A stretch of DNA of 22,275 nt from a virus: positions 1-22,275 of IMG/VR virus record IMGVR_UViG_3300036827_000054, one strand, 5' to 3'. Position 1 is the stretch's first letter. The number at the start of each line of letters is the position of its first letter. The notes beneath the pieces were generated by a model that saw only the letters and a list, made by a program, of their open reading frames with translations, did no database searches and was not told the DNA's origin. Of this stretch, positions 2,830 through 13,491 are shown piece by piece. The translations under genes were made by a program, and so were the position numbers.

Positions 2830-3918
2830 ATGACGAATCGCCAAGCGATCGACGCGGTCATCGCAGAGATCAACAAGGAGCTTGGGCCGGAGACGGTGGT
2901 CTGGGGTAGCCAGATCCGCTACTCCGATCTGCCCCGCATCTCCACCGGCTCGTTCGCCATAGACGTGGCCCTGGGGGGCGGCTGGCAGACCAACGCCTTC
3001 CACGAGCTTTACGGCGACGAGTCCTCCGGCAAGACCACCCTCATCCTCAAGACCATCGCCACCCAGCAGGCCCTCAACCCTGACCACACCACCTTCTGGG
3101 TGGCAGCCGAGGAGTTCGTCCCGGCCTGGGCACGGGATCTGGGCTGCGACACCGATCGCATCCTGGTCATGCAGACCAACATCTTGGAGGAGGCGTGCAA
3201 CGCCGCCATCCGGGTGCTGGAGAGCAGGACCGCCGACGTTCTGGTCATCGACTCCATGCCCGCCTTATCACCGATCAGTGAGGGTGAGGGCACCATGGAC
3301 GACACCCAGATCGGCCTGGCGGCGCGCCTGATCGGCAAGTTCTTCCGCAAGAGCTACACGGCCATGAAGCGCTCCCTGGTGGAGGACGACAGGGCCGTGA
3401 CCTGCTTCATCGTCAACCAATGGCGGGAGAAGATCGGCGTCCTCTTCGGGGATCCCCGCACCACGCCGGGAGGCCGTGCCAAGAACTACTGGTTCACCAC
3501 CCGTGTGGAGTTGAAGCGCGACGAGTGGATCACCGAGGGGGACCGGAAGAACCAGCGCAAGGTCGGGATCACGATCAAGGCCCTGACCAAGAAGAACAAG
3601 AGCTACCCGCCCGAGCGGGTGGCCACCTTCGACTTCTACTTCGACCACAACGAGGTTGGCATCTCACCCGGATCGTATGACTCAGCCAAGGAGTTGATCA
3701 CCCTGGGCCTGACCCTCGACATCTTCCGGGTCAAGGGCAGCTACTACCACCTGGATGAGGATTCCTGGCATGGTCGAATGGCGCTGGAGGAACAGTGCCG
3801 TTGGGACTTGACTTTGCAACAAAGGTTGCGAGATGCTGTCCAGTACCAGATAGTCAAGGGAAAACCAGCCGAGGAGGCCGGACCCTCCCCCCGCAAGCTG
3901 GTCAGGGCCAACAAGTGA
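2830..3918 (+). CDS. recA: RecA-like recombinase
   Basis: This 362-residue protein has the complete RecA ATPase core. Residues 35-50 (RISTGSFAIDVALGGG) are the RecA entry segment. The Walker A motif is GDESSGKTT (62-70). WVAAEE (90-95) carries the catalytic glutamate position. Walker B is VLVID (137-141). The L1-like ISEGEGTMDD is at 149-158. NQWREKIGVLFGDPRTTPGGRAK (196-218) corresponds to RecA's NQIRxKIGVxFGxPxxTTGGxALK, including the sensor Gln and the L2 start. It should form ATP-dependent filaments on single-stranded DNA and catalyse strand exchange during phage repair and recombination-dependent replication. The C-terminal domain is recognisable but divergent. It sits directly upstream of junction and end-processing nucleases. 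Confidence 0.95.
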   Translation: MTNRQAIDAVIAEINKELGPETVVWGSQIRYSDLPRISTGSFAIDVALGGGWQTNAFHELYGDESSGKTTLILKTIATQQALNPDHTTFWVAAEEFVPAWARDLGCDTDRILVMQTNILEEACNAAIRVLESRTADVLVIDSMPALSPISEGEGTMDDTQIGLAARLIGKFFRKSYTAMKRSLVEDDRAVTCFIVNQWREKIGVLFGDPRTTPGGRAKNYWFTTRVELKRDEWITEGDRKNQRKVGITIKALTKKNKSYPPERVATFDFYFDHNEVGISPGSYDSAKELITLGLTLDIFRVKGSYYHLDEDSWHGRMALEEQCRWDLTLQQRLRDAVQYQIVKGKPAEEAGPSPRKLVRANK

Positions 3919-3948
3919 AGAACCGCCGCCTTCTGTTGAGCAGACAGC

Positions 3949-3954
3949 AGGAGG
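3949..3954 (+). promoter_or_regulatory. Shine-Dalgarno site for the resolvase-like nuclease
   Basis: AGGAGG lies eight bases before the ATG at 3963, in the 44-base gap after RecA. It selects 3963 over the open frame that extends upstream through the RecA coding sequence. Confidence 0.8.
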
Positions 3955-3962
3955 AGAAAGGG

Positions 3963-4514
3963 ATGACGCGTTTTGGAGGCGTCCGGAACCCGCGTTCTGG
4001 TGCGCGTTGGGACCGCCGAAACGACGGTCGTACCGCCACAGAACTCATCGAGTTCAAACGGACTGACAATCAGCGCTACATCACGCTCCGCTACGACGAC
4101 CTCGATGCCCTCTACCGACATGCAGTGGCAGAGTGCCGCTTCCCTGTTCTCGGCTTTGAGCTACACGGAAGGCACTGGGTCGTACTCCCTGAACCCGACT
4201 ATCATGAACTGGCTGCTCATCGATTCCAGCCAGATCCTCCCGACCATCTACGAGCGGAGGACACCGACCTGGATGGACCGGGCCAAGTGTCACGGCCTGC
4301 CCGGAAACCTGTTCTACGCCGAGTACCAGCACAACAACAGCCAGGTCCAAGAGGCCCGAAGCGTGTGCCTGGGAACCCACCCGGACCACCCCGGTGTCTG
4401 CCCCGTGATCCGGGAGTGCCTCGACTACGCGATCAACAACGGGGAGAGGTACGGCGTCTGGGGCGGGTGTTCCGAAAGGGAGCGGCGGCGGATCAAGCGC
4501 CAACGGCATCGTGA
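3963..4514 (+). CDS. PD-(D/E)XK nuclease, Holliday-junction-resolvase-like
   Basis: The ATG at 3963 has a strong AGGAGG. The first about 82 residues form a compact nuclease. NPRSGARWDRRND (9-21) gives the first acidic position. TELIEFKRT (26-34) holds the E-x-K pair (E30, K32). A helix (DDLDALYRHAVAE) and beta strands (PVLGFELHGRHWVVLPEPDY) follow. This is the Hjc-like pattern; cleavage of branched DNA next to RecA is inferred. No stop occurs after residue 82, so the frame runs to TGA 4512-4514, which forms GTGA with the next nuclease gene. Residues from about 84 to 183 overlap WhiB in another frame and have the poor third-position GC of a shadow. The true C-terminus is therefore uncertain. 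Confidence 0.75.
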   Translation: MTRFGGVRNPRSGARWDRRNDGRTATELIEFKRTDNQRYITLRYDDLDALYRHAVAECRFPVLGFELHGRHWVVLPEPDYHELAAHRFQPDPPDHLRAEDTDLDGPGQVSRPARKPVLRRVPAQQQPGPRGPKRVPGNPPGPPRCLPRDPGVPRLRDQQRGEVRRLGRVFRKGAAADQAPTAS

Positions 4515-4695
4515 GGAAGCTCTCGCGAACGGGAACACCATCTCGCTCCATCCACCGCCCGGTGATCGACAAGAACCTGAGGGCCTTGTTAGAAACGACC
4601 AAGCGGGACACCCGACTCCTTGGCGACGTTCAGCGGCTCTTATTGCAACCTGGCGAGCAGAGCGGGCTGCGGAACGATGCGCTGCATCCCTCTGA
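4204..4695 (+). CDS. whiB: WhiB-type Fe-S transcription factor (WhiBL), nested
   Basis: Starting at ATG 4204, the frame encodes WMDRAKC, LPGNLFY, SVC, CPVIREC, a helix (LDYAINN), GVWGG and ERERRRIKR, in the order of WhiB proteins. WhiB proteins are found in Actinobacteria and their phages, bind a 4Fe-4S cluster and act on sigma-factor-dependent transcription. The cysteines are C29, C55, C66 and C72. Spacing between the second and third is C-x10-C, not the usual CxxC, because of a short HPDHPG-containing insert. C89 in VWGGC is extra. The WhiB-like part ends near residue 103. The rest (to TAG 4693-4695) overlaps the next nuclease gene and has shadow-like codon use. An alternative start is ATG 4273. 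Confidence 0.8.
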   Translation: MNWLLIDSSQILPTIYERRTPTWMDRAKCHGLPGNLFYAEYQHNNSQVQEARSVCLGTHPDHPGVCPVIRECLDYAINNGERYGVWGGCSERERRRIKRQRHREEALANGNTISLHPPPGDRQEPEGLVRNDQAGHPTPWRRSAALIATWRAERAAERCAASL

Positions 4696-5554
4696 GATCT
4701 CTCACTCCGACTGGTGCCCGAGGGCCAGCTACTACCGCCTGGCTGGGGTAGTACCCCAAACCGATCCGCCTGCCACCTACTGGCAGATGCAGATGGTCTT
4801 CGATGAGGGCAAGGAGATCCATCACAAGTGGCAAAAAAGGTTGTGGGATCTCGGGCGACTGTGGGGCACGTTTTATTGTCAGAAGTGCCACTACGCCTGG
4901 GGCGCCACCGCTCCCGACCTGTGCGCCAACTGCCGCGCTCCCAGGGAGTTCCTGCGTTACCACGAGATCCCGCTGGCCAACACCAATCTCCGCATGGCCG
5001 GTCATGCCGATGGTGGCGTGGAGGAGAGCCTGGTGGAGATCAAGTCCATCGGCCTGGGCACCCTGCGCTTTGAGGCCCCCGGCCTGATCAAGGACCACAC
5101 CTATCGCTTCAACCTCAATGGGAAATCTAGAGAATTTCTAGATTACGACGGCGTGTGGGACTCGATCCGCAGGCCCTTCCCTTCCCATGTGCGACAGGGC
5201 GATTTCTACTGCTACCTGCATCGCAAGATCACTGAGGTGATCTTCATCTACGAGTGCAAGTGGAACCAGCGGGTCAAAGAGATGATTGTTCCGCACCGGT
5301 TGGAGCGCATCGCGGACCGGCTAGACATGTGCAGCAGGATCATCATGGCGCTCCGGGGCGGGCGGATCCCAGAGTGCCCCTTCGGTGGATGCGCCGACTG
5401 TCAACGCTACGAGGAGAAGCATGCAGACAGAGGCCCCGTCCTCACCAGGCGAACGGCGTCTGAGGCGCAGGCCCCCGCTCGACCTGCACGAGACGCTGCT
5501 GAAAATGGTCAACGGCAGTCGCCGCGCCGTCTATCACGATCTGGGGATCGATGA
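4511..5554 (+). CDS. Cas4/RecB-like Fe-S PD-(D/E)XK nuclease with zinc ribbon
   Basis: The start is GTG 4511 in a GTGA overlap; GTG 4562 is an alternative. Within 347 residues, LHPSEI and C69 (DWCPR) open the domain. The catalytic set is GHADGG (D167), VEIKS (E176, K178) and a QGDFYCYL helix (Q229/Y233). C289, C294 and C297 (ECPFGGCADC) complete a four-cysteine Fe-S site with C69, as in Cas4 and AddB-type nucleases. Residues 123-141 are an inserted zinc ribbon (CQKC, CANC). The likely role is DNA end resection for RecA. The last about 40 residues overlap the next gene and look like frame run-on. An AT-rich palindrome lies at 5124-5144. Confidence 0.88.
   Translation: MRKLSRTGTPSRSIHRPVIDKNLRALLETTKRDTRLLGDVQRLLLQPGEQSGLRNDALHPSEISHSDWCPRASYYRLAGVVPQTDPPATYWQMQMVFDEGKEIHHKWQKRLWDLGRLWGTFYCQKCHYAWGATAPDLCANCRAPREFLRYHEIPLANTNLRMAGHADGGVEESLVEIKSIGLGTLRFEAPGLIKDHTYRFNLNGKSREFLDYDGVWDSIRRPFPSHVRQGDFYCYLHRKITEVIFIYECKWNQRVKEMIVPHRLERIADRLDMCSRIIMALRGGRIPECPFGGCADCQRYEEKHADRGPVLTRRTASEAQAPARPARDAAENGQRQSPRRLSRSGDR
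5124..5144. repeat. AT-rich 21-bp inverted repeat inside the Cas4-like gene
   Basis: The arms AATCTAGA and TCTAGATT (8 bp, perfect) flank the 5-base centre GAATT. Each arm contains TCTAGA. It is read as KSREFLD in the nuclease, using TCT, AGA, TTT and CTA codons that the GC-rich neighbours avoid. A protein-binding site or a small RNA hairpin is possible. The sequence alone does not decide. Confidence 0.6.
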
Positions 5555-5984
5555 GCCAGCCAGTCCCGACTTCCAACCGCCCAGGCTGGAACCCGACATC
5601 GATGACATCACCGATAAACAACTCATGGACCTCTTCGTCAAGTTCACCCGCTGGTCCGATTATTTCCAGAGTCAACTGGCCATCGAGGAGATCTACGAGC
5701 GCTATGCCGACGCCGAGGTGCGCCGCCTGGAGGGCCTGTACATGGCAGCCAACAAGCCCGATCGGGTCACGGAAGCTGTCACCTGGGTGCGGGCGCAGAT
5801 GGAGTCGGACCGCACCATCCAGGAGGCCCGAGACGCCCATCGGGTTATCTACGCCCGCCGGAAGCTGAAGCAGATGCTCTTTGAGTCCTCTGAGCGGGAC
5901 GCCGCCGTGGTCAGCCGAGAACTCACCCGGCGCACCGACGCCAAATCCCCTGGGTACCGGCGGGCGGATCGGGGAGCGCCATGA
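5421..5984 (+). CDS. helical protein, possible recombination accessory factor
   Basis: The ATG at 5421 is preceded by GAGGAGAAG; a longer frame from 5385 lacks such a site. This 187-residue protein has a basic start (GERRLRRRPP), then DITDKQLMDLFVKFTRW and a long helical or coiled-coil stretch through EEIYERYADAEVRRLEGLY and EARDAHRVIYARRKLKQML. It closes with the hydrophilic helix SERDAAVVSRELTRRT. That ending and the size resemble small helical recombination mediators such as UvsY-like proteins. Position after RecA and the resection nuclease fits, but this is inference from shape and context, not a recognised match. It ends in ATGA with the next gene. Confidence 0.8.
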   Translation: MQTEAPSSPGERRLRRRPPLDLHETLLKMVNGSRRAVYHDLGIDEPASPDFQPPRLEPDIDDITDKQLMDLFVKFTRWSDYFQSQLAIEEIYERYADAEVRRLEGLYMAANKPDRVTEAVTWVRAQMESDRTIQEARDAHRVIYARRKLKQMLFESSERDAAVVSRELTRRTDAKSPGYRRADRGAP

Positions 5985-11162: not shown

Positions 11163-11590
11163 GCTTCATCGTTCCCGCCCAGTTCCGACAGCTTCCTCCC
11201 GTCTGGGAGATCGCTCAGCCCTTCAAGGTTGACGCCTCCAACAGCATCGCCTTCGATACGGACCCGGTGATGTGGGCACGCAATCACATCCTGGCGTTGC
11301 TGCTGACCAACCCCGGCGAGCGGGTCATGCGCCCGAACTATGGCATCGGCATCTTCAGCCTGGTCTTTGAGAATGACAACCCGTTGGTCGAGGCGCAGGT
11401 CGTCGCCGCCATCAATGCGGGCGCGGCCACCTATGAGCCGAACATCACCGTCAACGAGTGCAAGTTCGTGCCCCAACCAGAGTACTCCGGGGCCATGGAG
11501 ATCCATCTCTCTTTCTCGGTAGGCAGCGCACCGACCACCTACAGCATGGCCTTCACCGTGGGTGGTACTGCTGTCGAGGTGACCCGATGA
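11159..11590 (+). CDS. GpW/gp25-family baseplate protein
   Basis: This 143-residue protein starts in ATGA at 11159. The family pattern is clear: VDASNSIAFDTDP, then WARNHILALLLTNPGERVMRPNYGIG (residues about 40-63), then IFSLVFENDNP and VEAQVVAAINAG, followed by two beta segments. GpW/gp25 (T4 gp25-like) proteins link the baseplate hub to the wedge in contractile-tail phages and related systems. It precedes baseplate J, as usual. The length is typical for the family. No sign of truncation. Confidence 0.9.
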   Translation: MSFIVPAQFRQLPPVWEIAQPFKVDASNSIAFDTDPVMWARNHILALLLTNPGERVMRPNYGIGIFSLVFENDNPLVEAQVVAAINAGAATYEPNITVNECKFVPQPEYSGAMEIHLSFSVGSAPTTYSMAFTVGGTAVEVTR

Positions 11591-13491
11591 GCAATCTGCC
11601 CGTGTCCCTGGGCACCGTGTCGGATGTGATGACGAGCGACATTGTCGTCCCGCCCATCGACTACACCTCCCGCGACTACGCCTCTCTCATCAATGACCTG
11701 CTGAACCTGGTCCCGAGCTACCTGCCGGAGTGGACTGATCGCTCTCCCGGTGATTTCGGGATCGTGCTGCTGGAGCTATTCGCCTATGTGGGCGACATCC
11801 TCAACTACTACTCGGACCGCATCGCCAACGAGGCGTTCATCGGCACCGCTCAGCAGCGCCAGTCCGTGCTGAATATCGCCAACCTGTTGGACTACACCCC
11901 ACACGGAAACGTCGCCGCCACTTGTTTGACGCAGTTCTCCATCCAGTCGCCCGCTCCCACACCGGTCCTGATACCAGCCCACACCCAGATCGCCTCCGCG
12001 CTCAGCGGCATCCAGCAGATCATCTTTGAGACGACCCAGGATCTGTGGATCTTCGGGGACGGCATCTCCAACATCAAGACGGTTACCAGCAACGGTCAGG
12101 CCAACCAGCAGATCGTTCTCAGTGACCCCAGCGCGGGGTATCCCACCTACAACTTCACCGGAGGCAGCGGCAATCAGTCTGTCACCGTAGGCGGCACAGC
12201 TTGGACCCTGGCTCCCGGCAATACCTTCGTAGGCCAACCCGGCACCGCCACCATGTACACCGTCATCGGCGGTAACCCCAACGCCATACCCTCCATACCC
12301 CCCAACATCATCAAGTTTGGGAATGGCACCAACGGCACCATACCGGCCAACGGCTCAGCCATCGTCGTCACCTATCAGCCCGCCGCCCCCAATAATTACC
12401 AAGGGGTGGTGAGCGCCATCCATGGCGCCACCAACGCAGGTGAGGGCATAGGAATCTCAGACGGCACCCCCAATCAGCAGTTCACGCTATTCAGCACTCC
12501 AGTGGTCGACGGCTCCGTCGTGGTCTATGTGAACGAGGGCGGGTCGCCGGTCAAATGGAAGTACTACCAGCGGATCGTGGACGCGTTCTCCTCCGAAGCG
12601 GCCTATACCTACACCACCGATGCCAACGGCGTCGTCACCATCCAGTTCGGGGACAACGTCGCCGGACGCGTCCCGGCACCAGGCGCCTTCATCACCGCCG
12701 ACTACATGGTGGGCGGTGGGGCCATCGGCAACGTAGCCACCAACTCGCTGACGCAGTTGATGAGCGGCCCCGACGCCGTCATCGCCGTTACCAACACCAC
12801 GCCCGCCACGGGCGGTGCCGATGTCGAGGCGACCGACCACATCCGCATCCACGCCCCGCTGTCGATCTCGGCCATCAACCGGGCCGTGTCCCTAGATGAC
12901 TATGCCGCCCTGGTGCTGAACATCCCCAGCATCGCCAAAGCCTCAGCCATGTCGACGGCCTACAACGCCGTGAATATCTATGTCCATCCAGCAGGCAACT
13001 TCCTGATGACCGGACCGTCTGACACCACCGGCCAATCGGCGCTGACCAACCGGGTCAATGCCCTGCTGCCCTCGATCACCAACGTGGGCCTGACCGGCTA
13101 CCTGGACGACAAGAAGATGGTGGGAACCTCCATCGTCGTCCTGCCCCCGCAATACAACAACGCCGGGACGCTCTCCACCGGCTATGTGCCGGTGTGCGTC
13201 AATGTGACGGTGCAAGTGCTGCCGCAGTACCACGCCTCCACCGTGCAGGCCGCGGTACAAGCCGCCATCTATAACCTCTTCCTTTTCTCGGTGGTGGACT
13301 TCGGCAGCCGCGTCAGCTTGTCGACCCTTTACCACGCCATCATGAGCCTGGAGGGTGTCGACTACGTGAGCGCGGCCAGCATGTGGCGAAACGAAAGTCC
13401 GGGCAGTCCCGGTGACATCGTGTGCGCCCCCTACGAGATCCCCATGGCGTACTCAGTCGCCGTTACGACGACAGGAGGCATCATCTACTAA
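11587..13491 (+). CDS. baseplate J/gp47-family protein
   Basis: This 634-residue protein starts at ATG 11587 in ATGA overlap; an earlier in-frame start at 11458 lies inside the gp25 gene. Residues 20-105 carry the family's opening block: DYTSRDYASLINDLLNLVP, PEWTDRSPGDFGIVLLEL, AYVGDILNYYSDR and NEAFIGTAQQRQSVLN. A beta-rich middle follows. The block near residue 420-460 (DHIRIHAPLSISAINRAVSLDDY, then NIPSIAKASA) matches the family's C-terminal part. It is a wedge component with the gp25-like protein, linking baseplate to fibres. The bulky middle domain is Gly/Ser/Thr/Pro-rich. Confidence 0.92.
   Translation: MSNLPVSLGTVSDVMTSDIVVPPIDYTSRDYASLINDLLNLVPSYLPEWTDRSPGDFGIVLLELFAYVGDILNYYSDRIANEAFIGTAQQRQSVLNIANLLDYTPHGNVAATCLTQFSIQSPAPTPVLIPAHTQIASALSGIQQIIFETTQDLWIFGDGISNIKTVTSNGQANQQIVLSDPSAGYPTYNFTGGSGNQSVTVGGTAWTLAPGNTFVGQPGTATMYTVIGGNPNAIPSIPPNIIKFGNGTNGTIPANGSAIVVTYQPAAPNNYQGVVSAIHGATNAGEGIGISDGTPNQQFTLFSTPVVDGSVVVYVNEGGSPVKWKYYQRIVDAFSSEAAYTYTTDANGVVTIQFGDNVAGRVPAPGAFITADYMVGGGAIGNVATNSLTQLMSGPDAVIAVTNTTPATGGADVEATDHIRIHAPLSISAINRAVSLDDYAALVLNIPSIAKASAMSTAYNAVNIYVHPAGNFLMTGPSDTTGQSALTNRVNALLPSITNVGLTGYLDDKKMVGTSIVVLPPQYNNAGTLSTGYVPVCVNVTVQVLPQYHASTVQAAVQAAIYNLFLFSVVDFGSRVSLSTLYHAIMSLEGVDYVSAASMWRNESPGSPGDIVCAPYEIPMAYSVAVTTTGGIIY

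Follow-up and report, generated by a model that had tools for sequence, protein, structure and literature searches.

The window, by which we mean the whole stretch of DNA analysed here (22,275 nucleotides of IMG/VR virus record IMGVR_UViG_3300036827_000054), carries at positions 3915–4695 two long open reading frames on the same strand. One encodes an Hjc-like Holliday junction resolvase (HJR, frame 0) and the other, in the +1 frame, a WhiB (Wbl) protein. They follow a recombinase gene and run into an exonuclease gene, and the features of the region are listed below.

2830–3918, + strand: RecA/UvsX-like recombinase gene (Pfam RecA, E 1.8e-52; PHROG 97 UvsX-like, E 2e-49)
3915–4514, + strand: HJR-frame ORF in frame 0, consisting of an Hjc-like Holliday junction resolvase that contains the ExK motif VEFK, about 100 codons of unconserved filler and the stop TGA 4512–4514
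3949–3962, + strand: internal Shine-Dalgarno-like purine stretch AGGAGGAGAAAGGG, preceding ATG 3963 (sequence and Shine-Dalgarno scan)
3967–4695, + strand: WhiB-frame ORF, lying +1 to the HJR frame; it follows the ATGA stop at 3964 and has no stop before TGA 4693–4695
3973–3975, + strand: candidate WhiB-frame start TTG, just after the stop-free stretch begins
4156–4158, + strand: alternative start TTG, made possible by TTT, a disfavoured Phe codon that never varies at this site
4200–4208, + strand: hand-off site, where amino-acid constraint leaves the HJR frame at the Tyr80 codon and is taken up by the WhiB frame at Thr-Asn-Trp, as judged by codon-position variability
4270–4551, + strand: WhiB (Wbl) domain (Pfam Whib; AlphaFold model matching WhiB3 and WhiB1)
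4288–4290, 4366–4368, 4369–4398, 4399–4401, 4417–4419 and 4453–4467, + strand: parts of the WhiB domain, respectively C1, C2, the insert, C3, C4 and GVWGG, then the basic tail
4511–5554, + strand: Cas4/RecB-like exonuclease gene (PHROG 2506 exonuclease, E 5.6e-21; PHROG 1706, E 2.5e-12)

Elsewhere in the window, a baseplate wedge protein at 11458–13491 (PHROG 219, E 4.5e-42) suggests a contractile-tailed phage.

The resolvase assignment comes from a profile search, in which phrog_2002 matches HJR residues 3–84 (E 1.1e-5), and from comparison with phage Alone3, to whose annotated resolvase it is 35% identical (E 4e-7). As to a PD-(D/E)xK-type fold, the E-x-K motif (VEFK) is invariant in the HJR relatives, but the structure model of HJR is of low confidence (pLDDT 51.8). 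Relatives were collected from viral contigs, 16 near ones in the first search and 26 distinct ones after two further searches, and the HJR-frame ORF is kept in 26 distinct IMG/VR relatives. Its start overlaps the recA stop TGA as GTGA (3915–3918), an RTGA overlap being found in most relatives, and its stop is overlapped in turn by the GTG start of the exonuclease (GTGA 4511–4514), with CGTGA in all 17 of the aligned relatives. In L029 (position 2754), and also in L027, L028, L105, L107, L108 and L110, the codon corresponding to the resolvase ATG (3963 in the window) is ACG, and therefore the resolvase starts upstream there, at the RTGA overlapping the recA stop. The preliminary description had placed a WhiB factor out of frame within the nuclease gene, with no stop separating the frames, and this is what we find: the HJR frame is free of stops until TGA 4512, in the window and likewise in every relative read across the region. 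The WhiB frame does not end at 4518 as had been proposed; it stays open to TGA 4693–4695, inside the next gene.

Read from ATG 4204, the +1 frame gives MNWLLID...RAKC29...SVC55-LGTHPDHPGV-C66PVIREC72...GVWGGC...RRRIKRQR, so that the previously noted cysteine order, ten-residue gap, HPDHPG insert, VWGGC and basic tail are all present. The similarity to WhiB is confirmed by profile searches with Pfam Whib (PF02467, 66.9 bits, E 2.3e-18, against a curated cut-off of 23.6) and PHROG 472 (WhiB, E 1.2e-21). The Wbl family is marked by four invariant cysteines and a G[V/I]WGG motif (PMC6282962). In the window the four are C29, C55, C66 and C72, counted from ATG 4204, and in the alignment of the clade GVWGG is invariant and all four cysteines are kept, with the sole exception of C1 in contig L015. 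In that contig (3001–3279), which is near-identical to L012, Arg replaces the first cluster cysteine (AKRHDVC). Several relatives (L009, L011–L013, L016 and L017) have an additional cysteine four residues past C1. An AlphaFold model built from 28 sequences (pLDDT 69.6, about 80–90 over the cysteine core) matches WhiB3 with a Z score of 10.1, WhiB1 with 9.6 and Streptomyces WhiB with 9.0, and therefore the WhiB fold has room for the insert. By profile, cysteines, GVWGG and fold, the +1 frame at 4204–4518 encodes a genuine WhiB.

The structurally known proteins WhiB1, WhiB3 and Streptomyces WhiB (PDB 6ono, 8cwt and 8dy7) share with it the fold, the four cysteines, G[VI]WGG and a basic C-terminal helix. 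WhiB3 binds region 4 of sigma-A through F31, F32 and W76 (PMC10245118), and residues that appear from the sequence to be equivalent, two aromatics after C1 (NLFYA) and the Trp of GVWGG, are kept in the clade. The window protein differs in having about 20 extra conserved residues before C1 and in the spacing C2-x10-C3 in place of C2-x2-C3. The ten residues LGTHPDHPGV separate C55 from C66, whereas two separate C37 from C40 in WhiB1, x2 being the norm of cellular Wbl proteins, although C2-x2-C3 is not among the defining family features given in the same source (PMC6282962). In WhiBs scored from bacterial-genome contigs the spacing is x2 in 79 of 79, a biased sample gathered with a GVWGG-based pattern.

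The wide spacing is no sequencing error, as it is kept in all 23 relatives scored, none of which has CxxC. The suggestion that such a changed pocket would be new for WhiB proteins does not hold for the family at large. WhiBs of the Streptomyces phages Alone3, GiJojo, BRock and pSt2308 have C2-x8-C3, and among other IMG/VR WhiBs the spacing is x8 in L049, L072, L076 and L239, x5 in L077 and its kin, and x9 in L087. Several viral WhiBs with widened spacing also stand behind a resolvase, and the complete order HJR-WhiB-Cas4 is found in Alone3-type phages, L087 and L239. Because widened viral WhiBs recur beside resolvase or Cas4, the wide loop marks a phage WhiB group of the replication and repair neighbourhood. 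Actinomycetia phage DSL-LC01 (L120, 3001–3210) contains a WhiB-like frame that is unannotated and has the normal CxxC spacing.

The closest known gene arrangement is that of the Streptomyces phages Alone3, LuckySocke, GiJojo, pSt2308 and BRock (Borockvirus), in which the order HJR-WhiB-Cas4 is the same as in the window. WhiB is likewise +1 relative to the resolvase in these BRock-type phages, and C2–C3 is widened (x8). There, however, the resolvase ends at a stop of its own and WhiB begins at a separate, conserved ATG, the two genes overlap by about 35 nt, and the alternative frames are full of stops. The GenBank start of WhiB in BRock (L124) and pSt2308 (L125) is apparently too late, at 2958 in locus coordinates compared with an ATG near 2814 that is common to all four BRock-type phages compared; in pSt2308 the resolvase is unannotated. 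The lambda spanin genes Rz/Rz1 (PMC6139136) resemble the window in that one gene is embedded in the other's +1 frame and is of a kind often overlooked by gene callers. They differ in that one gene lies inside the other, whereas in the window each domain faces the filler of its partner and the stop of the upstream gene serves a second time, in the start of a third gene. Loss of an upstream stop has been suggested as one route to embedded genes (PMC6139136). A literature search on WhiB together with resolvase and frameshifting found no report, and a survey of WhiB in actinobacteriophages mentions neither cysteine spacing nor a resolvase. The spacing of this WhiB is thus wide but not unique, and the two-frame arrangement is the new part.

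Codon-position variability places the division of labour between the frames sharply. At most positions amino-acid constraint lies in frame 0 through the Tyr80 codon (4200–4202) and in +1 from about 4207 onwards. Synonymous variation is normal with respect to the neighbouring genes, the ratio of observed to expected being 0.93 for HJR and 0.94 for WhiB, and because it is near normal for each single frame, neither filler half shows conservation at the protein level. The part of the +1 peptide that precedes the boundary contains suggestive conserved W, F, L and E residues; amino-acid selection on it was rejected in a resampling test, in which it scored no higher than controls.

Both frames are nevertheless free of stops over the halves in which they carry filler, and beyond chance. 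This double openness, which the preliminary description had missed, is the new result. Expected stops were obtained by resampling synonymous codons according to the usage of the same phages and counting stops in the other frames, for 23 sequences. In HJR codons 2–79 there are 0 WhiB-frame stops against 37.7 expected, and in WhiB codons 1–100 there are 0 HJR-frame stops against 61 expected. Since the 23 sequences share kinship, nominal P values overstate the evidence and are upper limits on it, and the fairer comparison is with the six most divergent sequences, where the counts are 0 against 11.7 (P about 9e-6 if independent) and 0 against 17.1 (P about 4e-8 if independent), respectively. The third frame is not depleted (82 seen against 59 expected, and 44 against 37). 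In recA and the exonuclease, control windows mostly lie at 0.6–1.4 times expectation. The depletion is specific to the clade, as BRock-type phages carry 5–8 such stops in HJR and 7–9 in WhiB. One control window is strongly depleted (4 seen against 20.6 expected); it is the exonuclease C-terminus (5385–5554), which the next ORF (5385–5984) overlaps in +1. Long +1 overlaps may be common in the phage of the window. Just upstream of 3966, WhiB-frame stops occur in several relatives and in the window (3937 and 3964), and with stops upstream of the resolvase ATG 3963 the open stretch therefore begins at about 3966, near TTG 3973.

Several starts for the WhiB frame were considered. Those named earlier, ATG 4204 and 4273, were rejected, neither being conserved among relatives; the codon at 4204 is ACG or ACC in nearly all of them, and 4204 is therefore unlikely as a start. 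Read-through of the stop of recA, which shares the WhiB frame, was rejected as well, since further stops lie between in the window, L006–L009, L016 and L117. TTG 3973, with AAGGG about 10 nt ahead of it, is present in 24 of 27 sequences, and L004 and L013 have a GTG 1–2 codons further on. TTG 4156 is present in 26 of 27, and its Phe codon is TTT in 23 of 23 sequences, although in recA and the exonuclease gene TTT accounts for 16% of the Phe codons. No Shine-Dalgarno sequence was found at TTG 4156 in the scan. No WhiB-frame start codon common to all 27 sequences was found; L042 lacks TTG 3973, the GTG further on and TTG 4156.

We consider it on balance probable, from the sequence comparisons, that the two ORFs overlap almost from end to end in +1, each domain standing opposite the unconstrained filler of the other, and we infer that both are translated. 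Entry into the second frame has two other explanations. A separate WhiB could start at the internal TTG 4156, or in a few relatives at a TTG that lies seven codons on and follows GGAGG, the upstream openness being largely inherited composition. The near-universal TTG and its invariable, disfavoured TTT codon fit such a short nested gene, as does the fact that the window of unusual, conserved HJR codons peaks at codons 54–69, around this TTG. L017 and L042 carry a TTG at −9 behind GGAGG, and the WhiB of BRock-type phages starts inside the resolvase end. We still hold this explanation to be rather unlikely: TTG 4156 has no Shine-Dalgarno sequence, L042 has kept TTT but lost TTG, and the depletion in HJR codons 2–64 (0 WhiB-frame stops seen against 30 expected) would be left unexplained. 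The second explanation is a programmed +1 frameshift at UAY-CAC-GAA (4200–4208) producing a resolvase–WhiB fusion, unshifted ribosomes reaching TGA 4512 and the exonuclease. One gene would then yield plain resolvase and resolvase with an iron-sulphur WhiB domain by an undescribed kind of +1 recoding that uses no known slippery motif. In its favour, constraint changes from frame 0 to +1 over two or three codons, with synonymous change free in each frame up to the switch; the boundary has neither stop nor conserved start, and a conserved NWLxID..Q.LPxIYER segment begins exactly at the switch. We regard it as unlikely. No known slippery motif is found at 4200–4208, nor a conserved RNA structure (RNAalifold gives only −3.4 kcal/mol, and single-sequence z-scores are mostly weak), and a frameshift-suppressor tRNA was rejected because ten related records contain no tRNA match. 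Relatives carry resolvase and WhiB as separate genes, and a frameshift leaves the stop-free +1 frame upstream of the switch without explanation.

Two further proposals concern the protein and the data. The insert might alter the cluster, a His of HPDHPG replacing a cysteine or the VWGGC cysteine joining in, to give a different cluster or a non-Fe metal site. The widened loop contains THPxHPG in most of the clade and L015 has Arg at C1, both of which fit, but apart from L015 all four cysteines are kept, L016 and L101 have Phe in place of the second His, the His pair is absent from the loops of the x8, x5 and x9 relatives, and the model retains the WhiB fold over the cysteine core. The extra cysteine reported in VWGGC is indeed present in the window; as an invariant ligand it is ruled out, because family members have C, T, S or R at this position. 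Altogether we find an altered cluster very improbable. A sequencing or assembly error, whether a frameshift or a spurious insert, has nothing in its favour beyond the odd anatomy and is effectively eliminated by 26 distinct contigs of many samples, in which the frames, the x10 gap and the missing stop are the same.

According to the preferred reading, that of two overlapping translated frames, 3915–4695 would be two genes in two frames of one strand. Ribosomes finishing recA would restart at GTG 3915, a start coupled to the end of recA, and make the Hjc-like resolvase from the 5′ half. Frame 0 would then pass through about 100 unconstrained codons to TGA 4512, with a restart at GTG 4511 for the exonuclease that is probably coupled, and we propose that frame 0 stays open because of selection for this coupling. 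A second set of ribosomes would enter the +1 frame and make the Wbl protein, whose WhiB domain lies in the 3′ half, most likely starting near the resolvase start (TTG 3973 or a neighbour behind AGGAG/AAGGG) or at another internal start, not at ATG 4204. By homology the Wbl protein would hold a [4Fe-4S] cluster with its four cysteines and would dock on region 4 of host sigma-A through the conserved aromatics, and it would tune host or phage transcription during replication.

Phage WhiBs adjoining the resolvase/Cas4 module form a distinct group, and the x2, x5, x8, x9 and x10 loops are a natural series on how far the WhiB cluster site tolerates change. If the preferred reading is right, a nuclease for DNA repair and a transcription factor are encoded in two frames of one 0.6-kb stretch, each using the filler of the other. 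Two unrelated foldable domains would then overlap to an unusual degree, in an arrangement that ordinary gene callers miss, and the 26 natural variants would be available for asking how the second frame is entered.
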